From a virus: 64,000 bases of DNA. Under the pieces are notes generated by a model. That model was not told the DNA's origin. It did no database searches and worked only from the letters and a program-made list of their open reading frames with translations. The stretch's first letter is position 1. Every line of letters starts with the position of its first letter. The stretch is taken from positions 29,706 to 93,705 of the IMG/VR virus record IMGVR_UViG_3300043775_002839. One strand, 5' to 3'. Shown one piece after another: positions 6,667-62,774 of the stretch. The position numbers and the translations under genes were made by a program.

Positions 6667-6858
6667 ATGGATATAGATATCGAAGACTTAACCCAAGACC
6701 AAAAAGAATATGTCAATCAGTACAGGAGAATTAATTCTAGACTAGAATCTCTTATGAAACAAATGTCAATAATACAAAACGAGACCAAAGGTCTAATAGA
6801 GGAACTTGAAGACCTCCGAAAAAAAGAAACAAAACAATATAAAAATGGCAAAAAATAG
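6667..6858 (+). CDS. Small coiled-coil protein of unknown function
   Basis: 63 residues, highly charged, with a heptad-like pattern (INSRLESLMKQMSIIQ...LIEELEDLRKK) predicting one long coiled coil. The start lies three bases after the 43B stop and the 3' end overlaps the uvsX start by 14 nt, so it is translated within the replication operon. Function not recognised; the location suggests a small replication or recombination accessory. Confidence 0.65.
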   Translation: MDIDIEDLTQDQKEYVNQYRRINSRLESLMKQMSIIQNETKGLIEELEDLRKKETKQYKNGKK

Positions 6859-7804
6859 ATTTACATTTGACGATTTAAACGCAGAACTTGCGGGATTAAA
6901 CCCATTAGGTTCTGTTATGGATAAATCAGACTTCTCTGAAGTTACTGAATGGATTCATACCGGAAACTATCACTTAAATGCATGCCTTTCTGGAGATTTA
7001 TTCGGCGGCTGGCCAAACAACAGGTCTTGTTCGATTGCTGGACCATCAGGAACAGGTAAAACTTTCTTGACACTGAATTCAGTTCGAGAGGCAATTAACA
7101 TGGGTTACTATGTAATCTATTATGATTCAGAGGCTGCAGTTGACAAGGACCAGATGGTAAAATTTGGTATTGATGTAACTAAAGTAAACTATCAACCTGT
7201 AAATACAGTGCAGGCATTTAGAACTTCAGTAACTTCAATTACTCAGAAAATGCAAGAGGTTAAAAGAAAGGGTGGAGAGATTCAAAAGATTATGATTATC
7301 TTAGATAGTGCCGGTAACCTTGCAACACAAAAAGAAATCGATGATGCTGCAACTGGAAGTGAGAAGGCAGATATGACACGTTCTAAAATGTTAAAGTCAA
7401 TCTTTAGAATTATCATGACGCCATTGGCTGACCTAAAAATTCCTTTCCTATTTACAAATCATACATACCAAACACAAGACTTTATATCACGTCAAGTTGC
7501 CGGAGGTGGTTGTTTAATTGCAGGTTCTAAAATTAGAATGTCAGATGATTCTTTAAAAGCTATAGAAGATATTAAAGAAGGAGACTTAATTAAAACATTG
7601 CTAGGCGATAAAGAAATAGAAAATACTTGGACATTTAATAAAAAAACATATCAAATAGAGTTTGAAGATGGTAGCATAATTGAATGCTCGGAAGACCATA
7701 GATTTTTTATAGGAGATGTAAATGATGACCCTCTAGATAATAAAAATTGGATATTTGCTAAAGATTTGGTAAAAAATAACGAAGTATCTAGATATATATT
7801 ATAG
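6845..7804 (+). CDS. uvsX: UvsX/RecA recombinase N-terminal part fused to N-half of a split intein
   Basis: Residues 1-222 are the N-extein of a T4 UvsX-like strand-exchange recombinase: Walker A GPSGTGKT at 66-73, Walker B IMIILDSAGN near 149-158, and the conserved TNHTYQTQ...VAGGG segment. Residue 223 is a Cys that starts a 97-residue N-intein: block A CLIAGSKIRM...IKEGD, and block B with CSEDHRFF. The chain stops at TAG. The C-half is encoded at 8788-9360. Trans-splicing should join GGG to TGP, restoring a 372-residue UvsX (T4: 391). The start at 6845 is preferred over an in-frame ATG at 6806 because the family begins at this MAKNRF-type sequence. Confidence 0.9.
   Translation: MAKNRFTFDDLNAELAGLNPLGSVMDKSDFSEVTEWIHTGNYHLNACLSGDLFGGWPNNRSCSIAGPSGTGKTFLTLNSVREAINMGYYVIYYDSEAAVDKDQMVKFGIDVTKVNYQPVNTVQAFRTSVTSITQKMQEVKRKGGEIQKIMIILDSAGNLATQKEIDDAATGSEKADMTRSKMLKSIFRIIMTPLADLKIPFLFTNHTYQTQDFISRQVAGGGCLIAGSKIRMSDDSLKAIEDIKEGDLIKTLLGDKEIENTWTFNKKTYQIEFEDGSIIECSEDHRFFIGDVNDDPLDNKNWIFAKDLVKNNEVSRYIL
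7511..7801 (+). other. Split intein, N-terminal half (IntN)
   Basis: 97 residues from Cys1 to the stop. It contains the splicing motifs A (Cys nucleophile) and B (C-S-E-D-H) but no endonuclease domain. Confidence 0.88.
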
Positions 7805-7823
7805 GAGGTGGTATACCACCTCC
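7804..7823. repeat. Perfect 20-bp palindrome after the IntN stop
   Basis: Arms GGAGGTGGTA/TACCACCTCC, with the first G being the last base of the stop codon. It can form an 8-bp GC-rich hairpin with a TATA loop. The left arm matches the predicted intein-less uvsX junction (GGA GGT GGT A). Confidence 0.8.
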
Positions 7824-7847
7824 CTTAATTTAAAAAATATCTTAAAA

Positions 7848-8840
7848 ATGCCAGTACTTAAAGAATATATCAATCCGGATTTAATAGAATTTAAAAATCT
7901 ATTAATTAAACACTATCCAGATTTAAACGCTGACAATGCACAGTATATTTTAGAACTTTATTCTTTTGTTTATACCGATAAAATAAAAGGAATGGTGGAT
8001 TTTAATTCTAAATGCCAATTATTTTTTAAACAATTTAGAAATGGAAAATCACACTCTTTTTTATCAAAAGAATATTGGATATCAATGGGACATTCAATAG
8101 AATATGCAAGTAAGAAAGTAAGCGAAAGTCAGAAAATTAACAGTCCTCTAAATAAAGAACATTGGTTAAAAAAAGGATTTAGTGAAAATGATGCGATTAT
8201 TAAAATAAAAGAAATTCAATCAAATAGGAGCAATCTTAGATATGAAAAGTATACCAAAGAAGAAATTTCAAGACAAAGCACATGGTCTATAGATTATTGG
8301 ATTAATAAAGGATTCTCAAAGGAAGATGCTATAAAAAAAGTCCATGAAAAAAATTATTCATGTAGAGAATTTTGGAATAGTGATGATGAATATAATGAGA
8401 TTAAAAAAATAATATCTAAAAAAACTTCAGATTTTATTAAAAACAATCCAGAGATTTATAAATCTTTTTTTGGAAGTATTTCTAAGGAAGAAATTTCATT
8501 TTTTAAAGACATTTCAACACATATTAATAATATTAAACATATAGAATTCATTGTCAATATAAAAAAATCTAAAGAACTAGAACAAGGAATAATAAAATAC
8601 GATGGTTATTTTAAAGATGATGATTCATTAATTCTAATAGAGTATGATGGATTGTATTGGCATAAACAAGACTATGACGAGATAAAGGATAAAATATGTT
8701 TAGAAACAAGAAATGATGTTAATGGTATAATAAGAATAAGTTGCGATGCTTATAAAAATAATAATAAAATAATCAATTTAATACAAGATGCAATTAGAAA
8801 AATTAAAAATAAAGAATGTAACAGAGTTAAAATCTACTAA
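7848..8840 (+). CDS. Endonuclease gene inside the fractured uvsX (EDxHD/Vsr-like)
   Basis: 330-residue protein between the intein halves. The C-terminal part has the signature IEYDGLYWH (E265, D267, H272) followed by D275 and a Lys-rich tail, consistent with the Vsr-like EDxHD homing endonucleases described in fractured genes with split inteins. The N-terminal two thirds carry three copies of a motif of the form (K/D)x(Y/H)W(I/L)xxG(H/F)SxxxA at about residues 74-90, 103-118 and 148-163, probably DNA-binding modules. Its 3' end overlaps the start of the IntC gene by 53 nt. The AT content is higher than in the flanking uvsX exteins. Confidence 0.8.
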   Translation: MPVLKEYINPDLIEFKNLLIKHYPDLNADNAQYILELYSFVYTDKIKGMVDFNSKCQLFFKQFRNGKSHSFLSKEYWISMGHSIEYASKKVSESQKINSPLNKEHWLKKGFSENDAIIKIKEIQSNRSNLRYEKYTKEEISRQSTWSIDYWINKGFSKEDAIKKVHEKNYSCREFWNSDDEYNEIKKIISKKTSDFIKNNPEIYKSFFGSISKEEISFFKDISTHINNIKHIEFIVNIKKSKELEQGIIKYDGYFKDDDSLILIEYDGLYWHKQDYDEIKDKICLETRNDVNGIIRISCDAYKNNNKIINLIQDAIRKIKNKECNRVKIY

Positions 8841-8907
8841 AGTATATGACCTTACTGTAGAAGACGCTCAGCATTACATCTCAGAAAATGGAGTGATTAA
8901 TCACAAC
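8788..8907 (+). other. Split intein, C-terminal half (IntC)
   Basis: 40 residues ending His-Asn, followed by Thr as first C-extein residue; size is typical of natural split-intein C halves. Confidence 0.87.
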
Positions 8908-9360
8908 ACAGGACCTGAATACGCCGCTTCAATAGTTCTTATGTTAAATAAGGCGCAATTAAAGGATGGTGATAAAAAAGTTGGTATCGTTGTAACCGCC
9001 AAGCCTGACAAGAATCGTTTCGCAAAACCCCACCCAATTAAATTCCACCTTGACTTTACTAAAGGTATGAATCCTTATGTTGGATTAGAACAATATGCAA
9101 CATGGGATATTTGTGGAATCACAAGAGGTTCTATTGAGAAAGGTGTTAAAACTCCTAAATCAACTGCAAGAGGATGGATTTGTAAACATCTTGATGAGAC
9201 TGTTTCTAATGCAGAATTCTTTACTGAAAAGGTATTTACAAGAGAGGTACTTGAACAAATTAATGAGCACCTTAAGCCAATTTTTAATTATAATACTTCG
9301 GCTGAAACTCTTAATAATGAAATTGGAGACTTATTAAACGAGGACTTAGATACTGAATAA
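8788..9360 (+). CDS. uvsX: C-half of split intein fused to UvsX C-terminal part
   Basis: The first 40 residues form the C-intein: block F VYDLTVEDAQHYI, then GVINHN, ending in the catalytic His-Asn. Thr41 is the +1 nucleophile and opens the C-extein TGPEYAASIVLML, which matches the UvsX GGGTGP segment seen in T4. The remaining 150 residues complete the recombinase core and acidic tail (GDLLNEDLDTE). The ATG at 8788 lies inside the 3' end of the endonuclease gene and gives a normal IntC length. Trans-splicing with the product of 6845-7804 is needed for a whole UvsX. Confidence 0.88.
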   Translation: MQLEKLKIKNVTELKSTKVYDLTVEDAQHYISENGVINHNTGPEYAASIVLMLNKAQLKDGDKKVGIVVTAKPDKNRFAKPHPIKFHLDFTKGMNPYVGLEQYATWDICGITRGSIEKGVKTPKSTARGWICKHLDETVSNAEFFTEKVFTREVLEQINEHLKPIFNYNTSAETLNNEIGDLLNEDLDTE

Positions 9361-14276: not shown

Positions 14277-16868
14277 ATGGCAAATTATAACCAGAAGTTT
14301 AACTCTGACGATAGTGTAGTTAGACACATTATTATAGGATTTTTAGCCGATTTGAATACTAAATTGTATTTTCATCGACAAATAACCAATGAAGAGAGAG
14401 TAGTAGTGGACGTTCCATTTTACTACTCAATAACAGGGGATGACCAGTTCCTAAGAGATAATTTCTTATTTTCTACAGCATCCGGTCCAAATTGTACTCC
14501 AGATAAAGAACATGCCGATGCAAACTACGATGTTGTACCAAGAGGACTTGTAAACTTTGATGGACTTGCTATTGATTCTGGAAAACTAGTTAATAAAAGA
14601 ATCTCCGGTAACTATACTAAAATGAATTCTGAGGGAATTATTGAATCTTATGTTGCCGAATTTGACATGATTCCAATAACTATCAGTTTTAATGTTGAAA
14701 TACTAGTATCTTCAACTCTTGATTCTTTTAAAATAACTGAGGCAATAATTAAAAGAATGTACAAATCCAACTATTTTAATGTTGAAGTTGGACATTTAGA
14801 AGAGGGTAATTATAGAATTGCATCTTATTATGCCCTACCGGACGATTATAATCTTGAAAGACCCGTTGGATTCAAATATGATGATAAGGACCGATTTAAA
14901 ATAACCTTTCCAATTGAAGTTAATTCATTTATACCTTCATTCCATCTAGGAAATGAAGAAAGTTTCGGAACAAATACAGATCGTTTCGGAACAAATCAAC
15001 GTTCTACTGAAATGTTTGCTGGAAATAGAATGTTTACAATAAATAACATTATAAATTCGACAGATGTTACTCAAATCGATTCCGGTCCATTTCTTGGAGA
15101 AATTATACAAGTGCCATCAATACCACCAACAAATGGTAGTTCACTATTTGGATCTCAGGGACCTATAGGTCCTGCAGGAGACAGAGGACCTCAAGGACGC
15201 CAAGGTCCTATAGGACCTCAAGGATATCAGGGTATTCAGGGTATTAAAGGAGATCAAGGACTTCAGGGTATTAAAGGAGACCAAGGTACTCAAGGAGATC
15301 AAGGACTTCAGGGTACTCAAGGAGATCAAGGACTTCAGGGTATTAAAGGAGACCAAGGAATACAAGGAGACCAAGGAATACAAGGAGACCAAGGTACTCA
15401 GGGAGACCAAGGAATACAAGGTACTCAGGGAGACCAAGGAATACAAGGTACTCAAGGAGACCAAGGAACGCAAGGTACCACTCCACTTTGGATTTTTAGA
15501 GGTGAATGGGTAAATGGGATTGATTATATTGCTGGAGACTTGGTTACATTTAACGGATCTCTTTACTATACAGCAACCGGCGTTTATTCTTCTTTTAATC
15601 CGGAATATACTGGAGTGGACTGGGCTCTTATATCTCCGAGAGGAGACCAAGGAGACCAAGGAGACCAAGGAGACCAAGGAGACCAAGGAACTCAAGGAGA
15701 CCAAGGAACTCAAGGAGACCAAGGAACTCAAGGAGACCAAGGAACTCAAGGAGACCAAGGAACTCAAGGAGACCAAGGAACTCAAGGAGACCAAGGAACT
15801 CAAGGAACTCAAGGAACTCAAGGAGAAAAAGGCACAACAGGAAATTTTGGTGGTGCAACATTTGAGTTCTTCTATGACAATGATACAACGGATCCTGTAA
15901 ATCTTACTTCTGGACACATAAGAATTAATGAATTTGGTACTGAAATGTACATTTCATATTTAGATGCTAACTCCGTAAATATTCAATCATTCATACATAC
16001 AATTGATGACTCATCTTCTCAGATCAAAGGTTCATTTAAACTAACCTCATATTCTGACCCACTGCTTTATGCATTTTTTAATATCACCGGCTCTCATACA
16101 GAACATTCAGATCATTTTAATGTTCCAATTGCATTTATTTCTAGCCCTATTGCTGGAACTGTACCTCCTGATCAAAGAACATATATTACATTTCAAAGAA
16201 CAGGAGATATTGGAGACCGAGGACCTCAAGGAGACCAAGGACCTCAAGGACCTCAAGGACCTCAAGGAGACCAAGGACCTCAAGGAGACCAAGGAACTCA
16301 AGGAGACCAAGGAACTCAAGGAGACCAAGGAACTCAAGGAGACCAAGGAACTCAAGGAGACCAAGGACCTCAAGGAGACCAAGGACCTCAAGGAGACCAA
16401 GGACCTCAAGGAGACCAAGGACCTCAAGGAGACCAAGGACCTCAAGGAACTCAAGGAGACCAAGGACCTCAAGGACCTCAAGGAGACCAAGGACCTCAAG
16501 GAGACCAAGGAACTCAAGGAACTCAAGGAACTCAAGGAAATGGACCTCAAGGACCTCAAGGACCTGCTGGTACAGGTTCAGGTGCAGGTGGAAGTATTAA
16601 ATCAATAAACGTAATAAGCAGTAATACAATCGCCGGAAGTAATGCTAGCACTGAATACACATATCTTGCATCAGGAACTATTGATATCACTCTTCCAACA
16701 GCCGTGGGAAATACAAATAACTACTATATCAAAAATACAGGAACAGGTACAGTAACAATTAAAACAACAGGATCTGAAACAATAGATGGAAGTTTAACAG
16801 CACCTCTGCGGGTACAATACACTGCGCTAACTCTTGTCAGCGACCAATTAAACTGGTTCATAATATAA
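14277..16868 (+). CDS. Collagen-like fibre protein
   Basis: 863-residue virion fibre candidate. Residues 1 to about 285 form a globular virion-attachment domain. Three Gly-X-Y blocks follow (rich in GDQGTQ and GDQGPQ), which should form triple-helical rods. Between blocks 1 and 2 is an insert (WVNGIDYIAGDLVTFNGSLY) with the W..G..Y..GD.V...G..Y pattern of small carbohydrate-binding modules (CBM5/12-like). A second insert separates blocks 2 and 3. The C-terminal 95 residues (ITLPTAVGNTNNYYIKNTG...) look like a trimerising fibre tip. Probably a receptor-binding or decoration fibre. A weak GATATATAT box sits just before the start. Confidence 0.75.
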   Translation: MANYNQKFNSDDSVVRHIIIGFLADLNTKLYFHRQITNEERVVVDVPFYYSITGDDQFLRDNFLFSTASGPNCTPDKEHADANYDVVPRGLVNFDGLAIDSGKLVNKRISGNYTKMNSEGIIESYVAEFDMIPITISFNVEILVSSTLDSFKITEAIIKRMYKSNYFNVEVGHLEEGNYRIASYYALPDDYNLERPVGFKYDDKDRFKITFPIEVNSFIPSFHLGNEESFGTNTDRFGTNQRSTEMFAGNRMFTINNIINSTDVTQIDSGPFLGEIIQVPSIPPTNGSSLFGSQGPIGPAGDRGPQGRQGPIGPQGYQGIQGIKGDQGLQGIKGDQGTQGDQGLQGTQGDQGLQGIKGDQGIQGDQGIQGDQGTQGDQGIQGTQGDQGIQGTQGDQGTQGTTPLWIFRGEWVNGIDYIAGDLVTFNGSLYYTATGVYSSFNPEYTGVDWALISPRGDQGDQGDQGDQGDQGTQGDQGTQGDQGTQGDQGTQGDQGTQGDQGTQGDQGTQGTQGTQGEKGTTGNFGGATFEFFYDNDTTDPVNLTSGHIRINEFGTEMYISYLDANSVNIQSFIHTIDDSSSQIKGSFKLTSYSDPLLYAFFNITGSHTEHSDHFNVPIAFISSPIAGTVPPDQRTYITFQRTGDIGDRGPQGDQGPQGPQGPQGDQGPQGDQGTQGDQGTQGDQGTQGDQGTQGDQGPQGDQGPQGDQGPQGDQGPQGDQGPQGTQGDQGPQGPQGDQGPQGDQGTQGTQGTQGNGPQGPQGPAGTGSGAGGSIKSINVISSNTIAGSNASTEYTYLASGTIDITLPTAVGNTNNYYIKNTGTGTVTIKTTGSETIDGSLTAPLRVQYTALTLVSDQLNWFII
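15150..15480 (+). repeat. Collagen-like coding repeat block 1
   Basis: About 110 residues of Gly-X-Y built from 9- and 18-bp units such as GGAGACCAAGG; in-frame, no stop. Confidence 0.85.
15643..15840 (+). repeat. Collagen-like coding repeat block 2
   Basis: Nearly perfect GDQ and GDQGTQ repeats (9- and 18-bp units). The low divergence suggests recent expansion by slippage. Confidence 0.88.
16204..16590 (+). repeat. Collagen-like coding repeat block 3
   Basis: Gly-X-Y repeats mixing GDQGPQ and GDQGTQ units, ending in a flexible GTGSGAGGS linker before the fibre tip. Confidence 0.88.
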
Positions 16869-25654: not shown

Positions 25655-27247
25655 ATGGCAGGATTTGTACAAAGAAATGGTCCATTGACTAAAGCCCCGT
25701 TTAACCTAAGTAATACGCTTAAGAAGTTATCTTCTTTTGGTATGTACTATGATGATTTGGTGCTTAGACAATCTCAAGCAATAGGCCCAGTAGAAGATGC
25801 AATTGGTTACGGCCAAATGAACCCAACAGGTCTGGATAGTGATGATATGTATGGCGCATTTGCAGCCCTTTCGATGGCTGATACTACAATGCGTAAAAAT
25901 ATTCCATTCTTTGACCAAGCATATCGTGGTAAAAGAGATGAACTGCGGGCTTTTGCGCAGCATGATGAAATTGAAGACATCCTGGATATACTTTGCGATG
26001 AGTCAATTGTATACGATAGCAAAAACTTCATGGCCAATCCCGAGATTATTGGAATGGAAGTTTCTGAAGATGTACAAAAATATCTTAATAAAGCATATAG
26101 AGACCTGTATCAATACTTTGGATTTAACCTAGACCAATCAGCATGGTACTTCTTTAGAAAATGGTTAATTGATGGTTATCTATCATTTGAGATTATTTAT
26201 AATCCTGAAATGTCAGAAGTTATTGGATTTAAAGAAATTGATCCAATCACATTGGTTCCAGGATATAACCACGAAGATGGTAAAAAAGTTTGGATTCAGT
26301 TTAAAGACGATCCAGTTAAGCAGAGAAAATTGTATGATTCACAGATTGTGTACATATCATACTCTTCGATTACTACAGCATCAAGGGTTTCTTACCTTGA
26401 GAGACTTGTAAGAGCATTCAACTTAATGAGAATTATGGAACATACCCGGGTTATTTGGGCTGTGACCAATTCATCTTATAGAATGAAATTTATTATACCA
26501 GTCGGTGGTAAATCTAAAACAAGAGCAAAACAATCCCTTGCTCAACTGATGAATAACTATAAAGAAGTTGTAGATTTTGATTGGGACAGTGCATCCCTTA
26601 CAACTAATGGTAAACCAATGTTACAATTTAATAAAGAATATTGGTTACCTAGCAAGGACGGAGAACAACCAGAGATTGAAACCTTGGGTGGAGAAGGTCC
26701 AGAGCTTAGCGACACTGAATCATTAAAATACTTCTCAGATAAACTTAAATCAGTTTCAAAAATTCCTTACAATAGATTCATGTATGAAGATGGCGGAGGA
26801 GATTTCAATCTAGCTGCAGATGGTATGATTAGAGACGAGATTAAATTTAGTAAATTTATTAATCGTTTACGTAGCTCATTCCAAGAGATATTGATTAAAC
26901 CCCTATGGATTCAAATGTGTCTTAAATTTCCAGAATTTAAAGAGGATGCAGGATTTAGAACCCAAATTGCTCTAAGATTTAACGAGGATAATATGTTCTC
27001 TGAATTAAAGACAATGGAAATCATGCAAAAGAGACTTGATTTTATTACTACAATGAAAGATTCACTGGTTAAAACAGATCCTGTAACTATGGAAGAAACT
27101 CCATATTTTGATATGGACTTCTTAGTTGATAGATACCTTAAACTCTCTCCAGATGATAAAGCAGCTAATGATGCATATAAAGCCAGAACTGCTGCTGCAA
27201 AAGCTGCCGAACCGGAACCTGAAGATCCAATGGCAATGGGAATGTAA
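25655..27247 (+). CDS. 20: Portal vertex protein gp20
   Basis: Dodecameric portal through which DNA enters and leaves the head. The 530-residue length (T4: 524) and conserved segments support the call: IEDILDILCDESI, WLIDGYLSFEIIYN, IKEIDPITLVPG-like FKEIDPITLVPGYN, YLERLVRAFNLMRIMEHTRVIW, and SKIPYNRFMYEDGG. The C-terminal domain ends in an Ala/Glu/Pro-rich tail. Followed by a small acidic protein, the protease-scaffold fusion and the capsid gene, matching the T4 20-67-68-21-22-23 order. Confidence 0.93.
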   Translation: MAGFVQRNGPLTKAPFNLSNTLKKLSSFGMYYDDLVLRQSQAIGPVEDAIGYGQMNPTGLDSDDMYGAFAALSMADTTMRKNIPFFDQAYRGKRDELRAFAQHDEIEDILDILCDESIVYDSKNFMANPEIIGMEVSEDVQKYLNKAYRDLYQYFGFNLDQSAWYFFRKWLIDGYLSFEIIYNPEMSEVIGFKEIDPITLVPGYNHEDGKKVWIQFKDDPVKQRKLYDSQIVYISYSSITTASRVSYLERLVRAFNLMRIMEHTRVIWAVTNSSYRMKFIIPVGGKSKTRAKQSLAQLMNNYKEVVDFDWDSASLTTNGKPMLQFNKEYWLPSKDGEQPEIETLGGEGPELSDTESLKYFSDKLKSVSKIPYNRFMYEDGGGDFNLAADGMIRDEIKFSKFINRLRSSFQEILIKPLWIQMCLKFPEFKEDAGFRTQIALRFNEDNMFSELKTMEIMQKRLDFITTMKDSLVKTDPVTMEETPYFDMDFLVDRYLKLSPDDKAANDAYKARTAAAKAAEPEPEDPMAMGM

Positions 27248-27268: not shown

Positions 27269-27619
27269 ATGAAAATAATTAAAACATTTGAGGAATTTAC
27301 AAGCTCACTTCAAGAAGATGCAATCGATGCAGGTGAAGATTCAAAAGTAGTAGTTGACGATGTCACACTTGACTCAGGAAAAGAAATTAAATCCACTGAA
27401 ATCCTAGGGACTATATTATCCTCTAAAAGTGAAAAGGAATTTAAAGAATATTTCTATAAAGAATACGGAAATACAGCGTTTACCGAAGAGGATATGTTTA
27501 CCCTTGTTAAATTTTTTAATGACTACCAAGAGGAAGTTGCTCAAAAAGAGAAGGATGCCGAAAAAGATGCAGAAGGCGGAGAAGGTGGCGAGGAAAAGGA
27601 TCCATTGGCAGACATTTAA
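27269..27619 (+). CDS. Small acidic prohead core protein with targeting-like N-terminus
   Basis: 116 residues, very acidic, with a Glu/Lys/Gly-rich C-terminus (KDAEGGEGGEEKDPLADI). It starts MKIIKTFEEFTSSLQED, which resembles the T4 capsid targeting peptide with an LxE protease site (LQE). The position between portal and protease corresponds to the T4 gp67/gp68 core proteins. No sequence identity to those is claimed; the assignment rests on location, charge and the N-terminal peptide. Confidence 0.6.
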   Translation: MKIIKTFEEFTSSLQEDAIDAGEDSKVVVDDVTLDSGKEIKSTEILGTILSSKSEKEFKEYFYKEYGNTAFTEEDMFTLVKFFNDYQEEVAQKEKDAEKDAEGGEGGEEKDPLADI

Positions 27620-27679: not shown

Positions 27680-29602
27680 ATGACTAAAAACTTACTGATC
27701 CTAGAAAGATCGTCTACAGAGTTAGAGTTTAAACAAGAAGGTGGGACCTATGTTCTAGAGGGTATCTTTGGAGAAATCGATAAGAAAAATCGTAATAACC
27801 GAATCTATACTGAATCTGAATACTTACCGCAAATTGAGGCTCTACAGGCAAAAATTAAATCATCTAAGTTATTAGGTGAATTAGATCACCCGCAAACATT
27901 TGATGTTTCTTTAAAAAATGTATCACATATTATTGAAGAACTTACTTATGACACAGAAACTAAGCAGGTTAAAGGACGTATAAGATTATTAGATACTGAT
28001 GCTGGAAGACAGGCAAAAGCCCTTGTAGATGCTGGTGTTCCATTACAAATTTCAAGTAGAGCAGCTGGTGCAGTTGAATCTAATGGAACTGTAAAAATTA
28101 AACAATTATTTACTTATGATTTAGTGGCAGACCCTGGGTTTGAAAACGCTGAATTGAAAAGAGTTAATGAAGCTTATGGGTTTCTTAATGAAGGAAATGA
28201 CCTATTTATTTACGAGATAAATAAAGAAAACGAACAACAACCAATCGAAAATATAAACGAAACAAAAATGGCAGAGTCTAAATTTATTACGGTTGAGGAT
28301 TTTAATAAATACTCTAAATATCTTTCTGAAGAAATTAAATCTATTAAAGAAGGTATGAATTCTTTAACAGAATCAGAGTCTACTAGTTCTCAATTAGGAA
28401 CCCTTAAAGAATATACTGATTATTTAGCTAAGAAATTAGATGAATCAATCAAATATTCAGAACACATTGCTGAAAAAGCAGACCAAGGTATTCAATACTC
28501 AGAAACACTTGCAGAGAAATTGGATCAAGGTATTCAATACTCAGAGCATATTGCTGAAAGCGTTGATGCTATCAAAAATTACACTAACTATTTAGCTGAA
28601 TCTTACAATGAAGGTTCTACTTCTTACGAGAATTTAATTAAATATACTGAATATTTAAGAGAGAACTTAGAAAAAGTAACTGAGTATGCTGAGTACGTTG
28701 CAGAAACTGTTAACACTAACCTATTATTAGAAGACGAAGCAGGAATTCCAGCTGAAGACCTTAAAGATGAAACAGAAGATGTTTCTCCTGATGTCGTAGA
28801 TGCTGACGGTAATGTAATCACTGGAAAACCAGAAGACGTTGCTAAAGATGTAAAACTTGCTGGTAGTGGAGATGCTGCTGGTGAAGAAATTAAAGAAGCA
28901 AACGACGGAACTGCAGCAGGTTTACCAGCTGAAGATATCAAAAAAGCTACTAAAGATGTTACTGTAGATGTAATTGATGCTGACGGTAATGTAATTAAAT
29001 CAAAACCAGAAGATGTAGAAAAGGACTTAGAACTTGCCGGTAAAGGAGACGCTGCTGGAAAACAAGTTGACCAGATGGAAGCTTACAAAAATTCAATCAC
29101 TTCTAAATTAGAAGCCCTAGTTGAAAAAGTAAATGCTAAAAAAGAAGACAATCCAACATTCTTTAAATTTATCTCTGAAGAGAAAGTAACCGAATTTAAC
29201 GCCCTATCTACTGAAGATAAAACTAAAGTTGTAAGTGCAGTCGAAGGTAGAGGTTACCTAACTGAAGGACAAATCTTGGCCCTATGGAATACTTCATTAA
29301 GTGGAGTTGTAGAAACTAATAATTCACCTACAGTTATTAAATTAATGCCAACTGAATACCATGATACTTGGGCTAAATGTTCTGAAGGTAAGAAAAACCA
29401 AATCATCGCGCAGTCTAAATATCATAAATTAGAAACAGCTTACCAAGTTGCAAACTTTTGGCAAACTAGAGACCTTAGAGAAGTTGCTCCAGTAATGGAA
29501 AAAATCGCTATGGTAAATGAATCAACAGTTGAAGATGTTCAAACTTTAGGTTATGATGCTACCCAATTAGGTGCTGAAATTGCAAAAAGATTCAATAGAT
29601 AA
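27680..29602 (+). CDS. 21: Prohead protease gp21 fused to core scaffold (gp22-like)
   Basis: Residues 1 to about 185 are a gp21-type serine protease: GIFGEIDKKNRNNRIY, catalytic His in LLGELDHPQTF, and catalytic Ser in QISSRAAG. From residue 197 onward the sequence is a long charged coiled coil with repeats such as KLDQGIQYSE and YLAE, and two copies of a block ending in VIDADGNVI...KPEDV, typical of a scaffold that is later digested. Many (I/L)xE sites are present. An internal ATG at 28268 in an A-rich start-like context (AACAAAAATGGC) could give a separate scaffold, as in nested phage protease/scaffold genes. In T4 the two are separate genes. Confidence 0.82.
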   Translation: MTKNLLILERSSTELEFKQEGGTYVLEGIFGEIDKKNRNNRIYTESEYLPQIEALQAKIKSSKLLGELDHPQTFDVSLKNVSHIIEELTYDTETKQVKGRIRLLDTDAGRQAKALVDAGVPLQISSRAAGAVESNGTVKIKQLFTYDLVADPGFENAELKRVNEAYGFLNEGNDLFIYEINKENEQQPIENINETKMAESKFITVEDFNKYSKYLSEEIKSIKEGMNSLTESESTSSQLGTLKEYTDYLAKKLDESIKYSEHIAEKADQGIQYSETLAEKLDQGIQYSEHIAESVDAIKNYTNYLAESYNEGSTSYENLIKYTEYLRENLEKVTEYAEYVAETVNTNLLLEDEAGIPAEDLKDETEDVSPDVVDADGNVITGKPEDVAKDVKLAGSGDAAGEEIKEANDGTAAGLPAEDIKKATKDVTVDVIDADGNVIKSKPEDVEKDLELAGKGDAAGKQVDQMEAYKNSITSKLEALVEKVNAKKEDNPTFFKFISEEKVTEFNALSTEDKTKVVSAVEGRGYLTEGQILALWNTSLSGVVETNNSPTVIKLMPTEYHDTWAKCSEGKKNQIIAQSKYHKLETAYQVANFWQTRDLREVAPVMEKIAMVNESTVEDVQTLGYDATQLGAEIAKRFNR

Positions 29603-29761: not shown

Positions 29762-31279
29762 ATGGCAAATTTAATTAATGAAGCAGAAATCAGAGCAACG
29801 TGGGCTCCGATTATCGAATCTGCGACAGGTATCAACGATGCAAGCAAATTAGCTTGGATGTCAGAATACTGTCACAACCACAAATTATATGAAGATGCTT
29901 CTCAAATGAGCTTAGGTACTGCTGGTAACATCTTTGGTATGGGTGCTACAGCTTTACCTGGAAATACCTTTACAAATGGTATGTCTACTACAAAAGGTTC
30001 TGGAGACAAATCTCCTTCTTTACTTCCTTTAGCAATGCAAGTTGCTGCTCAAACTATCGGTCTTGACTTAGTACCAGTAGTTCCTATGGCTGGTCCAATG
30101 GGATTATTATCTTACTTAGACTTTGTTTACGAAGGTGGTAAATTAGGTGGAACTACTGCTCCAACTTATGTTAAAGCTAACCCAGTTGCTGGTACTTCTG
30201 ATTTAGCAGCTGCTACTGCTGGTTCTCCTGCAGTTGCAACATCTACAACTTATACTTACATTGGAAAATCTCGTATCGATGGTTATTCAATCTTTAAAGT
30301 AAATGGTAACCCAGTTGCTGCTAACGTTGCTGCCGATTTACTATTAGCTGTAAATGCTGTATTATCTCCTGATACTACCGGTACTATCTTAGATGTACAA
30401 TTAGTAAAAGCTTTAGAGGATCACGTTAAAGGATTCGCTGCTTCTACTGCATCTGGTACTCCATTTACAAGAGAAGGTGGAGAACAAACTCCAGACAAAG
30501 TTATGGGTCTATCTTTATTCTCTAAAAGCGTTTCAGCTGAAACTTTCCAAGTTGCTGCTGCCGTTACAAGAGAGCAAGTTCAAGATTTAAAACAATTCGG
30601 AGTTGATGCTGTTGCTCAAGTTGAAGCTGTTTTAACTAATGAATTAACTCAAGGTATTAACCAATACATCTTAGGAAGAATCAGAACTTTAGGTACTCTT
30701 AACGTTACTAGAGCTTTCAGCGCTGATGCATTTGACTTAAGCTTACCTGCTGCTTCATCTTTAACAGGTGGTGAAACTTTACCTTCTGTTCACAGAAGAA
30801 TTCTTTCTCAAATCTTAGCTTCTGCTAACTTAATTGCTAACAGAGGTAGAAGAGGTGCTGGTAACTTCGCAGTATGTGGACCACAAACTGCTACAGTTTT
30901 ACAATCAATCGCTGGTTTCGTTGCAAACCCAATGGCAAATACTTTCGCACAAGCTGCTGGAGCTATCTACCCATTAGGATCTGTAGCTGGAATTAACATC
31001 TATACTGACCCTACAATGGACTGGGCTGATTATTCAATCGCAGTTGGTAGAAAAGGAGACGGAAACGGACCTGGTATCGTATTTATGCCTTACTTAATGG
31101 CTGAATCAGTTCAAGCAATTGCTGAAGGAACTATGGCTCCTAAAGTAGCTGTTAAATCTAGATTCGCTCTAGTTGATGCAGGATTCCACCCTGAAACTCA
31201 ATATGTTGAATTTAATGTTAAACCAATCACTGCTTCACCAGCTGTTGCACAATGGACTAACTTATTAACTTTAGCTTAA
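29762..31279 (+). CDS. 23: Major capsid protein gp23
   Basis: HK97-fold major head protein (505 residues; T4 521). The N-terminus EIRATWAPIIESATG parallels the T4 gp23 ELLNKWKPLLEG propeptide, and central and C-terminal stretches fit the family: VTREQVQDLKQFGVDAVAQ, NLIANRGRRGAGNFAVCG, and GPGIVFMPYLMAESVQ. Strong codon bias toward TTA, GCT, GGT and ACT distinguishes it from neighbours and fits very high expression. It has its own promoter, a long structured leader and two tandem hairpins downstream. The N-terminal part is probably removed by gp21. Confidence 0.92.
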   Translation: MANLINEAEIRATWAPIIESATGINDASKLAWMSEYCHNHKLYEDASQMSLGTAGNIFGMGATALPGNTFTNGMSTTKGSGDKSPSLLPLAMQVAAQTIGLDLVPVVPMAGPMGLLSYLDFVYEGGKLGGTTAPTYVKANPVAGTSDLAAATAGSPAVATSTTYTYIGKSRIDGYSIFKVNGNPVAANVAADLLLAVNAVLSPDTTGTILDVQLVKALEDHVKGFAASTASGTPFTREGGEQTPDKVMGLSLFSKSVSAETFQVAAAVTREQVQDLKQFGVDAVAQVEAVLTNELTQGINQYILGRIRTLGTLNVTRAFSADAFDLSLPAASSLTGGETLPSVHRRILSQILASANLIANRGRRGAGNFAVCGPQTATVLQSIAGFVANPMANTFAQAAGAIYPLGSVAGINIYTDPTMDWADYSIAVGRKGDGNGPGIVFMPYLMAESVQAIAEGTMAPKVAVKSRFALVDAGFHPETQYVEFNVKPITASPAVAQWTNLLTLA

Positions 31280-51425: not shown

Positions 51426-52016
51426 ATGAAGAAAATTAAACTATATGAACAATTTATAGAGGAGAGAAGTGGAGAGCTTTTTAATCCTAAGAAAAACAAA
51501 CCAGTAGTATTAAAACCGACCAAAGATACCGAACTAGAAAAGGAATTCTTTAATCTTATTAGTACAGCGTACTCCGAGATTGGAGGACATATCAAGGTCC
51601 AATCACCAGAGGATGTATTTAAAGACCCTGATTGGAACTATTGGGAGGGAATAGATATTCATGGTAGTAATGATTTTGATGTTATCATGTTTGGTGAAAA
51701 AACCCGTTTTGGACTTAAATTCTCAGGAGTTGGCCATGATGGAACCAAAGATGCTAAAAGAGACTATATGGATAGACGAGGAAAGGAACTAAAGCAACTT
51801 GGATATTATATAGAAGTTTCTGGTAAAATTGCAGAAATCTTAATCAATAAATACCAAGTACCTATTGTAACTGACCGAGAGGTTGTAGAAAAGGTATTGG
51901 GTAAAAAAGTCGATTGGATTGGAAACCTAGACGGTGGAACCGGCGGAGGTTGGTACAGTCGAACTATTGGAGGAGGAGCCCATGAAAAGATAATGTTAGG
52001 TAAACCAAAAGCATAA
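51426..52016 (+). CDS. Conserved phage protein with targeting-like N-terminus
   Basis: 196 residues starting MKKIKLYEQFIEERSGE, a member of the shared N-terminal peptide family with an IEE site. The body has DFDVIMFGEKTRFGLKFSGVGHDG, GYYIEVSGKIAEILINKYQVPIVT and a C-terminal GGAHEKIMLGKP. These look like conserved motifs of a phage-specific enzyme or binding domain, but I cannot assign a function. An early-type promoter lies upstream, and the next gene starts one base after its stop. Confidence 0.65.
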   Translation: MKKIKLYEQFIEERSGELFNPKKNKPVVLKPTKDTELEKEFFNLISTAYSEIGGHIKVQSPEDVFKDPDWNYWEGIDIHGSNDFDVIMFGEKTRFGLKFSGVGHDGTKDAKRDYMDRRGKELKQLGYYIEVSGKIAEILINKYQVPIVTDREVVEKVLGKKVDWIGNLDGGTGGGWYSRTIGGGAHEKIMLGKPKA

Positions 52017-52017
52017 T

Positions 52018-52527
52018 ATGAAAGCACTATTTTTACACGGTCTTGAAAGCAACCCAAAAAGCGAAAAGTCAAAGTTCTTAGCAAAGTTTGATGCCGAATG
52101 TCCCGCAATGGACTATAAAAATTCTGGACTATTTAATGAAATCTTAGCAAAGATACAATCTGATAGACCAGATGTTTTAATTGGAAGTTCTATGGGAGGT
52201 TGGTTTGCATATTGTCTTTCAACGATTACTGGAATACCAACTATTCTCTTTAATCCAGCAGTTCATAGTCGTTCAATGGAACCTGTTGTTCAAATGGGAA
52301 GTATGAAGGCAAATCATACTGTTATTCTTGGTAAGAAAGATGACCTAATTAGCACTGAAGGGACACTTGAATGGATTAAAAAGAATCCAGGAAATTTCAA
52401 TGTTCACTTTGAAAACAATGGACACCAAACACCAATTGGTATATTTAAGAAATACGTTCTGAATTCTGGCTATCTTAACGAAATGCAAAGGATTAAAATG
52501 TTTGAGGAATTCAATAGCCTGGATTAA
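52018..52527 (+). CDS. YqiA-like alpha/beta hydrolase (esterase)
   Basis: 169-residue short alpha/beta hydrolase. LHGLESNPKSEKS is the oxyanion-side start, GSSMGGWFA is the nucleophile elbow (Ser about 60), KKDDLIS supplies the acid, and NNGHQTP the catalytic His. This is the architecture of the UPF0227/YqiA esterase family (about 190 residues). Substrate unknown. It begins one base after the preceding gene, with which it probably forms a two-gene early operon. Confidence 0.8.
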   Translation: MKALFLHGLESNPKSEKSKFLAKFDAECPAMDYKNSGLFNEILAKIQSDRPDVLIGSSMGGWFAYCLSTITGIPTILFNPAVHSRSMEPVVQMGSMKANHTVILGKKDDLISTEGTLEWIKKNPGNFNVHFENNGHQTPIGIFKKYVLNSGYLNEMQRIKMFEEFNSLD

Positions 52528-58851: not shown

Positions 58852-59001
58852 ATGGAAGATAAAGATACAAATATGGTAATTTTAATAATTGCATTTATGG
58901 CCTTCCTATTTGGATTCTTGGTAGCAGAATCAATATACAATGAAAGGCCAATGACTGAAGAGGAATATTATGAACTACAAAAACCACAATGGTATGAGTA
59001 A
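58852..59001 (+). CDS. Small single-span membrane protein (49 aa)
   Basis: MEDKDTNMVILIIAFMAFLF then GFLVAESIYNERPMTEEEYY: an acidic N-terminus, one membrane helix and an acidic tail. Starts one base after the previous stop and overlaps the kinase gene start by 8 nt. Confidence 0.52.
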   Translation: MEDKDTNMVILIIAFMAFLFGFLVAESIYNERPMTEEEYYELQKPQWYE

Positions 59002-59392
59002 AGAATTATTTTTATTAAGAGGATTACCTGGAGCAGGAAAATCAACATTGGCAAAAATCCTTGTTGGTGATAGAGATTATTGTCACAAAGAGGCCGATAT
59101 GTATTTCGTAGATAGCAAAGGAAATTATAAATTTGACTTTTCTCTGATTAAAGAGGCCCATGCATGGTGCCAAGAAGAGGTAGAGTTTCTAATGAAATAT
59201 GAGCACACTGTAGTAGTTTCAAACACATTTACACAGGAATGGGAAATGCAGGCTTACTATGATTTGGCCAAAAAATATGGATATAAAGTCAATTCTATAA
59301 TCGTAGAGAACCGACACGACGGGGTAAATGAGCACAATGTTCCGCAAGAAACATTAGAAAAAATGAAACAACGATTTGAAATTAAATTATAA
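58994..59392 (+). CDS. P-loop polynucleotide kinase-like protein
   Basis: 132 residues from the ATG at 58994 (MSKELFLLRGLPGAGKST); an in-frame ATG at 58970 is less likely because the P-loop domain normally starts here. Walker A GLPGAGKST, then HKEADMYF (phosphate-acceptor side) and VVVSNTFTQEWEM, a layout typical of T4 Pnk-like/zeta-like kinases. It probably phosphorylates 5' ends of RNA or a small molecule. Only six bases separate it from the RNA ligase gene, suggesting a joint end-healing and sealing role. Confidence 0.75.
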   Translation: MSKELFLLRGLPGAGKSTLAKILVGDRDYCHKEADMYFVDSKGNYKFDFSLIKEAHAWCQEEVEFLMKYEHTVVVSNTFTQEWEMQAYYDLAKKYGYKVNSIIVENRHDGVNEHNVPQETLEKMKQRFEIKL

Positions 59393-59397
59393 AATAA

Positions 59398-60522
59398 ATG
59401 GAAAACAATAATTCAGTTTGCTACATAGCAAAAATACATGAAGTACGGGCAATCGAAGGTGCAGATAACATCGAATTAGTTATCGCAGGTGGATGGAACG
59501 CCATCACAAAGAAAGGCGAATTTAATGTAGGAGCCTTAACTATTATTGCAACAACAGACGCAGTAATACCTGAAAAACTTTCTGAAAAGATGGGAGTAAC
59601 TAATTACTTAAGAAAAGGTAATAGAGTCAGAACTGTAAAATTACGTGGAGTCTATTCAGAGTGTTTAATCATTCCAGTAATATATGCTAAAGCCAGTTCT
59701 ATATTAGAAGGAAAGGATTTAATGAATGAACTTGGTATCACTAAATATGAGCCACCAGTTAAACAAGTTCAATTGGCATCTGGTAGAAAAATTAAGTGGA
59801 GAGATAACCAAAACTTCCACATCTACTACAAGTTTCCAAACCTTAAAAATGTGGCTGGATTATTTACCCAAGAGGATGAGGTTCAAATCACCAGAAAATT
59901 GCATGGAACCAATGCACGTTATGGTATCGTAAAGAAATCTAAATTGACCCTCTGGGACAAGGTAAAGAAATTCTTAAGAATTGCTGACGAATGGGTTGAC
60001 TATGAGTACATCTACGGTTCTCATAACTGTGAGAAAGGTTCCGACTCTCAAGGATTCTATTCAACTGACGTTTGGAGAACAATCGCTGAAGAATATGGTA
60101 TCAAAGAAAAACTTTGGAACTATGCAAAATTCTTTGGAGCTAAGTATATTGGAGAAGGGGTAATTATTTATGGAGAAATTTATGGAGCTGGTATTCAAAA
60201 GAACTATACTTATGGATTGGAAAAAATTCAATTCGCAGGATTTGATACTAAAGTAAACGGAGAATATCAATCATTAGGTTTAGCATATAGCAGCATGGTT
60301 TTAGGGTTGGGATTGCCTCACGTAGAGGTACTTTACAATGGACCATGGTCTCAAGAGGTACAAGATAGTTTTGTATTCGGTAACTTCATTGATGGTACTA
60401 AAGTGCCTCATGAAGGAATTGTAATCAAGCACATCTCTGGTGAAAGAAACAAGGTGGCAAAGGTTATTAACCCAGACTACTTGATTTATGGTGAAAAAAA
60501 TAACGTAGGAGATTCACATTAA
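59398..60522 (+). CDS. RNA ligase with N-terminal OB domain (DraRnl/Rnl5-like)
   Basis: 374-residue ATP-dependent nucleotidyltransferase. The N-terminal 120 residues form an OB-fold-like domain (VCYIAKIHEVRAIEGADNIE). Motif I is RKLHGTN with adenylated K167, motif III is IYGEIYG, motif IV EGIVIKH and motif V VAKVINPDYL. The N-terminal OB arrangement resembles the Deinococcus-type ligase that seals nicked RNA in duplexes. With the adjacent kinase it may repair tRNA or other RNA cut by host defences. Confidence 0.83.
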   Translation: MENNNSVCYIAKIHEVRAIEGADNIELVIAGGWNAITKKGEFNVGALTIIATTDAVIPEKLSEKMGVTNYLRKGNRVRTVKLRGVYSECLIIPVIYAKASSILEGKDLMNELGITKYEPPVKQVQLASGRKIKWRDNQNFHIYYKFPNLKNVAGLFTQEDEVQITRKLHGTNARYGIVKKSKLTLWDKVKKFLRIADEWVDYEYIYGSHNCEKGSDSQGFYSTDVWRTIAEEYGIKEKLWNYAKFFGAKYIGEGVIIYGEIYGAGIQKNYTYGLEKIQFAGFDTKVNGEYQSLGLAYSSMVLGLGLPHVEVLYNGPWSQEVQDSFVFGNFIDGTKVPHEGIVIKHISGERNKVAKVINPDYLIYGEKNNVGDSH

Positions 60523-60843: not shown

Positions 60844-61797
60844 ATGAAAAGAATTAAACTATTTGAACAGTTTATTGCAGAGAAGGAGGACAATTCTGAT
60901 TTGCATAAAATCTATTTGGCTATTGATCCTGGTAGTGGGCACCGATGGTGGTCCTATAAAGACTTTGCCGGAGATAATTTCTTTGTACAGGTAACACTTG
61001 ACAATTATAAAGATATTGACATTAACCCAGAATATCCAATCCTTACATACAATTCTGGAGTAACTCAAAAGCTCCTAGACGAAGGGTTGATTAAAAAAGA
61101 AAATGTCTACAACCATCCAGAGCATATTAAACAGTCTGGTTCTAAGGCAGAATTCCATAAGTTGGTTGAAGGCGATGAAAATATCCCAAAAACTGCTCAT
61201 AATGAAAAAGATGCCCTAGAGATTGGATTCCCATTAATTGGAAAACCAGCAGAGGGACACTCAGGACTTGGTATTCAAATCTTTAAGGATCAGAAATCAT
61301 GGGACGATGCAGACCATTCGAAATTAGATGTTTATTCAGAATATATTGATAAAGCAGCCGAACACCGATTGATTACTTTTAAAGGAAAACCATTCTTTTG
61401 GATGGAAAGACAGCCAATGAACGACAAAGCAAAATCTGGAGATGGAAAAGGAGCTGAAAAAATGATGTTCAAATATATCAAAAAGGATGTTACCAAAATA
61501 CCAGGAAAATTCAACGACCTTGTTGAAAAGTTCGGTAAAATATTTTCAGACTTACCATATATCTGTTTTGATATTATGGAAGACCGTTCTGGAAAACTAT
61601 ACATAATTGAAAGTAACAGTCAACCGGGAGTACCGTTTGATTCTACAGTTCAGGCATACAGACAATTATTTAATGATTTCTACGGTCGCGATGTAAATCC
61701 AGCGGCTAACACCGAGCTCGAGAAATTGAGTAACTATATGATTAAGAAAACCCTGGACTTTGACCCAAAAAGATTTGAAATCGATGAAAAAATTTAA
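60844..61797 (+). CDS. ATP-grasp protein with capsid-targeting-like N-terminus
   Basis: 317 residues. It starts MKRIKLFEQFIAE|KED, closely resembling the T4 internal-protein peptide (MKTYQEFIAEA), with an IxE cleavage site. The body is an ATP-grasp ligase fold: FPLIGKPAEGHSGLGIQIF (Lys and Gly-rich loop), VYSEYIDKAAEHRLITF, then DIMEDRSGKLYIIESNSQPG with the Mg-binding Glu and Asn. This architecture is like RimK/glutathione-synthetase enzymes that ligate amino acids or peptides. Substrate unknown. Overlaps the next gene by 14 nt. Confidence 0.75.
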   Translation: MKRIKLFEQFIAEKEDNSDLHKIYLAIDPGSGHRWWSYKDFAGDNFFVQVTLDNYKDIDINPEYPILTYNSGVTQKLLDEGLIKKENVYNHPEHIKQSGSKAEFHKLVEGDENIPKTAHNEKDALEIGFPLIGKPAEGHSGLGIQIFKDQKSWDDADHSKLDVYSEYIDKAAEHRLITFKGKPFFWMERQPMNDKAKSGDGKGAEKMMFKYIKKDVTKIPGKFNDLVEKFGKIFSDLPYICFDIMEDRSGKLYIIESNSQPGVPFDSTVQAYRQLFNDFYGRDVNPAANTELEKLSNYMIKKTLDFDPKRFEIDEKI

Positions 61798-62230
61798 ACT
61801 ATTTGAAGAATTTAAAAATTCTACAGCATGTCCAGTTCCGACTAAAGACCTAGAAGTTAATACTAAAAACAGAGACCGTGCAATTAAAGCAGAGCATATT
61901 GAATATGGTCCCTTAAATGTTGACGAACCTGCTGGATTTTGGGAACATATTGCAGACCACTGGAATACTAGCGTAGAAGCTGCTAAAAAATCATTATGCG
62001 CAAACTGTGCTGCATTTGATGTTTCACCAAGAATGAAAGAATGCATGCCCGGAGAATTAAGCGACCCAGATGGTGAATTAGGATATTGTTGGATGCACCA
62101 GTTTAAATGTCACTCTGCAAGAACATGTTATACGTGGGCTAAAGGTGGACCAATATCAACTGACAAAATCTCTTTTAATTGGCAAGAGAAAAATCAAGAC
62201 GCTGCAATGAACAAAAATCCTATAAAATAA
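61784..62230 (+). CDS. Cys-rich protein with targeting-like N-terminus
   Basis: 148 residues from the ATG at 61784 (an upstream in-frame ATG at 61760 is deeper in the previous gene). It begins MKKFKLFEEFKNS, sharing the family N-terminus. Six Cys lie in CANCAAF, KECMPGE, GYCWMHQFKCHSARTCYTW, a pattern suggesting a metal or Fe-S site. I recall a similar Cys/Trp/His block in marine phages, without a function. Overlap with the ATP-grasp gene suggests a shared complex or pathway. Confidence 0.65.
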   Translation: MKKFKLFEEFKNSTACPVPTKDLEVNTKNRDRAIKAEHIEYGPLNVDEPAGFWEHIADHWNTSVEAAKKSLCANCAAFDVSPRMKECMPGELSDPDGELGYCWMHQFKCHSARTCYTWAKGGPISTDKISFNWQEKNQDAAMNKNPIK

Positions 62231-62231
62231 T

Positions 62232-62774
62232 ATGAAAAGAATTAAATTATTCGAAGAGTTCTTGAATGAAAAGGAGAATGTAACGCACAATTTTAATTGC
62301 GCAATGTTATACTTTGACTTTCCGGCAATGGCAACTCTACACCAATCAATTCGACCTGAAGATATATACACAGTAGAAGCAGATGAAAGTTACGGTCTTG
62401 AAGATGAACCTCACTGCACCTTATTATACGGACTTCACCCTGAAGTAACAGTGGACCAAGTTGCAGATAAATTAAAAGGAATCAAACTTGGTGAGTGCGT
62501 TGCTCACAATCTATCTCTTTTTGAAAATAAAGACTTTGATGTCTTAAAATTTGATATGGAAGGTGATAATCTTCACAATGCAAATAAAGCACTTAGCTCG
62601 CTTCCGCACACTACGGACTATCCGGATTACATGCCACACATGACTGTTGCCTACTTAAAACCAGGTAAGGGTTCTGAATACTTAAAAATATTAAACTCGC
62701 AAGAGCATTCTCTAAAACCACTTCATATTACTTACAGTATGACAGATGGCTCTAAACAAAAAATAGATTTATAA
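62232..62774 (+). CDS. 2H phosphoesterase, Acb1-like, with targeting-like N-terminus
   Basis: 180 residues. After MKRIKLFEEFLNE|KEN (family N-terminus with an LNE protease site) comes a 2H phosphoesterase domain: first HxT as HCTLLYGL at 61-63, second HxT as HMTVAYLKPG at 136-138, with LFENKDFDVLKFDMEG and YPDYMPHMT between. This layout (EPHxT.YG, FEN...DVLK, F/YPDY.PH.T.AY.K.G) resembles phage Acb1 proteins that cut the cyclic nucleotide signals of CBASS. A role in 2',3'-cyclic or tRNA end repair is the alternative. If packaged, it could act from the first moment of infection. Confidence 0.72.
   Translation: MKRIKLFEEFLNEKENVTHNFNCAMLYFDFPAMATLHQSIRPEDIYTVEADESYGLEDEPHCTLLYGLHPEVTVDQVADKLKGIKLGECVAHNLSLFENKDFDVLKFDMEGDNLHNANKALSSLPHTTDYPDYMPHMTVAYLKPGKGSEYLKILNSQEHSLKPLHITYSMTDGSKQKIDL

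Follow-up and report, generated by a model that had tools for sequence, protein, structure and literature searches.

An Acb1-like phosphoesterase of a large T4-like phage bears a capsid-targeting-like leader and is plausibly one item of an injected counter-defence arsenal

Both the Acb1 nuclease and the injection of counter-defence proteins are already known, the latter from T4 IPI* and phiKZ Tad1 (PMC13282480). The T4 internal proteins IPII and IPIII start with MKTYQEFIAE, and in IPIII these first ten residues direct proteins into the prohead core. Mutations have mapped the targeting to positions 4 and 7 and the processing to positions 8 and 10, and the gp21 cleavage follows L/I-x-E (PMC9026906). 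In the open literature, to which most subscription journals do not belong, we found neither a packaged Acb1-like nuclease nor a cargo system as broad as the one described here. To our knowledge, Acb1 is made only once infection has begun. A signal nuclease packaged ready-made could act ahead of the CBASS messenger build-up.

Here, we analysed a 64,000-nucleotide stretch, called the window, which covers positions 29706-93705 of a 93,705-base virus record and encodes an Acb1-like 2H phosphoesterase (Table 1). Our main reading, with a probability of about 0.57, is that this nuclease enters the head, is trimmed there and reaches the host by injection, as part of a counter-defence arsenal with many cargoes. 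The HxT pair that the original prediction had put at residues 61-63 and 136-138 is present in the translation. So are its FEN...DVLK and PDY.PH.T.AY.K.G patterns, as F97-E-N99...D103-V-L-K106 and P131-D-Y-M-P-H-M-T-V-A-Y-L-K-P-G. Residues H61, T63, F97, K106, Y133, H136, T138, Y141 and G145 are invariant in the 48 Acb1-like relatives from viral contigs. An AlphaFold2 model of the enzyme has a mean pLDDT of 88 with the core above 90, and residues 1-15 are disordered with values below 50.

Table 1. Features of the window, with positions counted from its first nucleotide
Feature	Position	Strand	Details
T4-type portal protein (gp20)	25655..27247	+	PF07230 E 5e-70
Acidic protein with tag, MKIIKTFEEFTSSLQE/D, between portal and protease as are T4 genes 67/68 (prohead core)	27269..27619	+	gene order
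Prohead protease of the T4 gp21 family (Peptidase_S77), long C-terminal scaffold-like region	27680..29602	+	PF03420 E 2e-11
T4-type major capsid protein (gp23)	29762..31279	+	PF07068 E 1e-40
Tagged cargo gene, MKKIKLYEQFIEE/R	51426..52016	+	
UPF0227 hydrolase-like protein, C-terminal tag ...YLNE-MQRIKMFEEFNSLD at 52483-52524	52018..52527	+	Pfam UPF0227 E 1.1e-10
P-loop kinase-like protein, untagged	58970..59392	+	
RNA ligase, untagged	59398..60522	+	PF09414 E 1e-14; phrog_968 E 2e-56
Tagged ATP-grasp-like protein, MKRIKLFEQFIAE/K	60844..61797	+	below Pfam cut-offs
Tagged Cys-rich protein, MKKFKLFEEF, no LxE directly behind the tag	61784..62230	+	
Acb1-like 2H phosphoesterase with N-terminal capsid-targeting-like peptide	62232..62774	+	180 aa, ATG start
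Tag MKRIKLFEEFLNE, residues 1-13, predicted prohead-protease site LNE/K	62232..62270	+	disorder, relatives, T4 IPII/IPIII CTS match
First catalytic motif, H61-C-T63	62412..62420	+	H and T invariant in 48 relatives
Second catalytic motif, H136-M-T138	62637..62645	+	H and T invariant in 48 relatives

Judging by its capsid protein, whose closest counterparts belong to uncultured huge phages, Lak phages, PAU and pT24, we take the phage to be a probable large myovirus, with Bacteroidetes as its apparent hosts. Elsewhere in the window, at 6806-9360, a RecA/UvsX-like gene is interrupted by an apparent split intein. Its N-part ends intein-like and is followed by a free-standing ORF (7848-8840) and then by an ORF opening with an intein splicing domain. 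A family B DNA polymerase is split in two ORFs (3-887 and 5468-6664), between which lie ribonucleotide reductase-like, HNH endonuclease and clamp-like genes. The long protein encoded at 14277-16868 has collagen-like GxQG repeats and is possibly a tail or fibre protein.

Affinity of the enzyme to the Acb1 family is well supported by sequence comparisons. With 31.8 bits and E 1.4e-7, it passes the Pfam Acb1 family (PF23474) cut-off of 27 bits. The generic 2'-5' RNA ligase family reaches 25.5 bits, below the cut-off of 27, and LigT_PEase reaches 12.5 bits, far below that of 23.3. The sole strong PHROG is phrog_755 (E 7.7e-12), the one matched by T4 Acb1 itself (E 5e-68), and E. coli ThpR matches no PHROG, so none is common to it and the window enzyme. 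In hhalign, run against comparison alignments that are similarly deep, the family aligns with T4-type Acb1 over 78 columns (probability 88.6, E 2.6e-6) and with E. coli ThpR over only 8 columns (probability 4.2, E 0.0097). PADLOC and NCBIfam searches gave no match for the enzyme.

By structure, the best PDB match of the model in Foldseek is the solved Acb1 7t27 (E 3.6e-6, TM-scores 0.48/0.60), followed by a poxvirus cGAMP phosphodiesterase and then by a Burkholderia phage Acb1. Every one of the nine top-ranked PDB chains is a cyclic-nucleotide phosphodiesterase of immune evasion. LigT comes with an E-value of 5.2e-5, about tenfold weaker than Acb1 and with similar TM-scores, so solved Acb1 is the closest fold by a small margin and the fold match alone is non-discriminating. 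A family profile without T4 sequences, A2, puts Acb1 chains alone first, weakly (E 0.0085-0.014). The value of 2.9e-19 given for 7t26 by the profile A1 was set aside because A1 includes T4 Acb1, and A2 is the fairer of the two.

The 2H fold and the HxT pair are common also to LigT/CPDases, and all 48 family members match the generic family 2_5_RNA_ligase2 as well. The enzyme might then be an RNA end-healing 2H phosphoesterase, packaged or not, which opens 2',3'-cyclic phosphates and so helps the phage RNA ligase to mend tRNAs after cleavage by host anticodon nucleases. Genes for an RNA ligase and a P-loop kinase-like protein do lie 2-3 kb upstream, an RNA ligase is near the enzyme also in L040, L042 and L060, and Iyer et al. 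suggest such a role for the jumbo-phage 2H enzymes (PMC7824862). However, the ligase and the kinase are untagged and so would work at a different time or in a different place. The enzymes of the relatives L048 and L054, moreover, lie amid tagged cargo, and the ~3 kb upstream of them has no RNA ligase. The sequence and profile tests prefer Acb1 over ThpR. RNA end healing is the main rival reading, and we consider it unlikely.

The catalytic tetrad of Acb1 (H44, T46, H113 and T115 in T4) corresponds to H61, T63, H136 and T138. As to the base contacts, the Acb1 stacking residue W74 becomes F97, an F in 48/48 relatives, and F107 becomes Y130, a Y or F in 48/48. Y12 aligns one residue off the aromatic position 21, which is Y/F in 38/48. 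For two further Acb1 residues, the adenine contact E141 and the lid W147, the family alignment shows no conserved equivalent that we could recognise, though they may just be unalignable, and the C-terminus of the protein stops at the position aligned with W147. It is fairly probable that the enzyme cleaves cyclic oligonucleotides. As we cannot recognise two of the residues by which Acb1 contacts nucleobases, the anti-CBASS role of the enzyme is something that we only infer. The Acb1 identity claimed in the original prediction gains support at the level of the family from Pfam, phrog_755, hhalign and Foldseek, while the anti-CBASS part stays conditional.

The same residues bear on the possibility that the packaged enzyme degrades another signal, e.g. 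another cyclic or 2'-5'-linked oligonucleotide, in place of the classical CBASS dinucleotides. The unrecognisable E141 and W147, with the aromatics kept or nearby, suggest a changed base pocket, but this loses its force if the two are merely unalignable. A neighbouring homologue of the Thoeris inhibitor Tad3 in relatives hints that Thoeris signalling is a pressure common to both. The huge phage LR745206 (L013:9998-11314) has a fusion of an Acb1-like domain, with its own leader MKLKKYKQFIKES, and an RNase_T-like exonuclease, which could finish linear products. We find such a different substrate rather improbable and keep to an Acb1-like activity on adenine-containing cyclic nucleotides as our preferred reading.

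The peptide MKRIKLFEEFLNE at the N-terminus is genuine and occurs far more often than chance would allow. Searched as a degenerate DNA pattern, the tag matches 14-17 times in each of the four relatives with 200-236 kb and 6 times in the window's own 94-kb record, and the reversed pattern, used as a control, has no match in all ten records. Since the tag filter used residues 1-10 only, and the conservation of these residues in the 51 tagged families comes partly from the search expression, residues 11-13 alone are independent. They read [LIMV]xE in 67% of the 61 tagged non-Acb1 ORFs vs 3.6% of the 674 untagged ones. Hence, the LxE step behind the tag is not chance.

The tag resembles the T4 leader residue by residue. 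FEEFLNE of the window and YQEFIAE of T4 are alike in kind at all four mapped positions, with the T4 targeting residues Y4 and F7 corresponding to F7 and F10. Packaging of the enzyme is very likely on this sequence evidence. The predicted head-packaging N-terminus with a gp21 cut after LNE is favoured by the CTS match, the [LIMV]xE enrichment and the gp21-family protease. We found no virion proteomics of this clade.

As the function of the tag is drawn from T4 by analogy, the shared peptide might be another sorting or assembly signal, for a membrane, a compartment or the tail, and the enzyme might act only once synthesised in the infected cell. This is very improbable. The match to the mapped T4 CTS is at the residue level with the protease motif alongside, the same genome encodes a gp21-family protease, and the tag is also on the protein at the gene 67/68 position. 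Furthermore, the genes annotated as scaffold and internal capsid protein in the isolate Sphingomonas phage PAU bear a comparable leader.

In PAU, the lineage-specific leader MKTLTQLYEA... is on a 'scaffolding' gene and on two 'internal capsid protein' genes, as they are annotated, and these adjoin the portal and protease genes. Around ten head-region genes of PAU (L034, 116-7800), these among them, open with MK[ST][LI]xxL[YF]E-like leaders. As a cultured phage, PAU offers a test of the tag hypothesis.

Eighty relatives were located via the conserved core motifs and not via the tag. In 47 of the 48 aligned Acb1-like sequences, a set that includes the window protein, [LIMV]xE comes immediately ahead of the conserved body, although the sequences are related and so the 47 cases are not independent events. 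The leaders vary by lineage, e.g. MKRIKLFEEFLNE, MESQEFKRMQELAGIIVE, MIKLLDLLKE and MIKSFTQFVNE, and at several loci unrelated neighbours bear the leader of that lineage. An [LIMV]xE kept behind differing leaders is what repeated selection for packaging would be expected to leave in sequences.

The more distant relatives (L014, L016 and Maribacter phages) have no clear tag. The neighbours of the LR745206 fusion gene carry common leaders such as MKHLKKFNES. DNA patterns for two other leader types, MIKLxDLL and NEQxxxIKxxMG, matched each genome only singly and in most cases at the Acb1 gene. It is thus only in the LFEEF clade, and in PAU and LR745206 over the stretches read, that a tagged set spanning the genome is shown.

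Within this clade, a relative genome of ~235 kb has ~16 tagged genes. They stand in tandem islands whose content shifts between relatives. Among the tagged proteins read are ~51 families, mostly unrelated in their bodies, which include ATP-grasp, GNAT, zeta-toxin-like kinase and nucleoside deoxyribosyltransferase-like proteins. Most of the tagged cargo has no assigned function. The tag of the UPF0227-like protein is C-terminal, is retained in the relatives L207-L209 and has the cleavage motif ahead of it, so may be a mirrored capsid-targeting peptide. At the level of sequence, the tag with its cleavage motif, the protease gene and this cargo set sharing the tag are established, as is the affinity of the enzyme to the Acb1 family.

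A homologue of Tad3, the Thoeris inhibitor (PF25185), is among the tagged proteins (L001:9256-10014, E 4.7e-21). It has several LxE/IxE motifs ahead of the domain start at residue 42. In L001 it is directly upstream of the Acb1-like gene, which also has the homologue close by in L048, L053, L054, L056 and L081, and tagged homologues are also in L204 and L205. The members beyond L001 were assigned by sequence clustering, with family matches confirmed in G022 and G023. In the window's own record, a search for Tad3 found none. The idea of injected counter-defence is strengthened because the tagged Tad3 adjoins the Acb1-like gene in relatives. As far as context goes, nothing speaks more strongly for a counter-defence role than two unrelated families of signal-based immune evasion side by side with the same leader.

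From all these, we infer a course of packaging, cleavage, injection and signal destruction. The enzyme would be produced as a precursor whose first 13 residues serve as a T4-type capsid-targeting sequence and pull it into the prohead core. The gp21-family protease of the phage would trim it behind LNE, at E13. The mature enzyme would be kept in the head alongside the DNA and then injected at infection, where it may cut adenine-containing cyclic di- or trinucleotide signals, those of CBASS and possibly cA3. The signals would be destroyed from the infection start, ahead of any phage gene expression. The enzyme would be only one item of the arsenal, the same tag being on dozens of unrelated proteins including Tad3.

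A broader claim, on which we are evenly divided, is that one widespread group of the large T4-like phages, apparently of Bacteroidetes, loads each head with a swappable set of at least 10 injected effectors. A common cleavable leader would have been recruited repeatedly onto counter-defence proteins, Acb1-like and Tad3, and onto dozens of unknown families. If so, the tag is a genome-wide finder of injected anti-defence factors acting at the very start of infection. Should it be a capsid-targeting sequence, reading a genome lists the injected proteins, which can be tested singly as counter-defences. The T4 internal-protein idea, with three IPs and Alt, would then extend to an arsenal of ~16 or more per genome.

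In T4 (L035, NC_000866; 10592-11411), acb1 (57B) adjoins ipI, the gene of the injected anti-restriction protein. The candidate notion that T4 Acb1, which adjoins ipI and begins with MMEFKDF, itself carries a CTS was rejected, because this stretch varies among T4 relatives (MTLNEVSEG, MINFQDLG) and is mostly without the cleavage motif in them.

Among known enzymes, the Acb1 proteins of T4 (gene 57B) and FBB1 share with the window enzyme the 2H fold, the HxT/HxT tetrad, phrog_755 and Pfam Acb1. Unlike it, they have E141 and the lid W147, for which the window protein shows no recognisable equivalent. T4-type Acb1 also has no processed capsid-targeting leader, and its N-termini, MMEFKDFSTG and variants, are mostly without L/I-x-E. 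The RNA 2',3'-cyclic phosphodiesterases ThpR/LigT have the 2H fold and the HxT motifs in common with the window enzyme but stand apart as a sequence family, with an 8-column profile match and no shared PHROG.

Among counter-defences against nucleotide signalling, the Tad3 homologue, of a Type I Thoeris inhibitor, has the same tag as the window enzyme and an adjoining gene in relatives but an unrelated body. The phiKZ Tad1, a sponge for CBASS and Thoeris signals, is likewise reported to be virion-delivered (PMC13282480). It sequesters the signals, whereas the window enzyme would degrade them and would be delivered via a T4-type leader.

Like the window tag, T4 IPII and IPIII have a short N-terminal leader with aromatic-x-x-aromatic and then [LI]-x-E. 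Like the tagged cargo, T4 IPI, IPII and IPIII have unrelated bodies, and IPI* is an injected counter-defence protein. Compared with these T4 internal proteins, the window-clade leader is three residues longer, the genes per genome are ~16 instead of three and the cargo includes enzymes.
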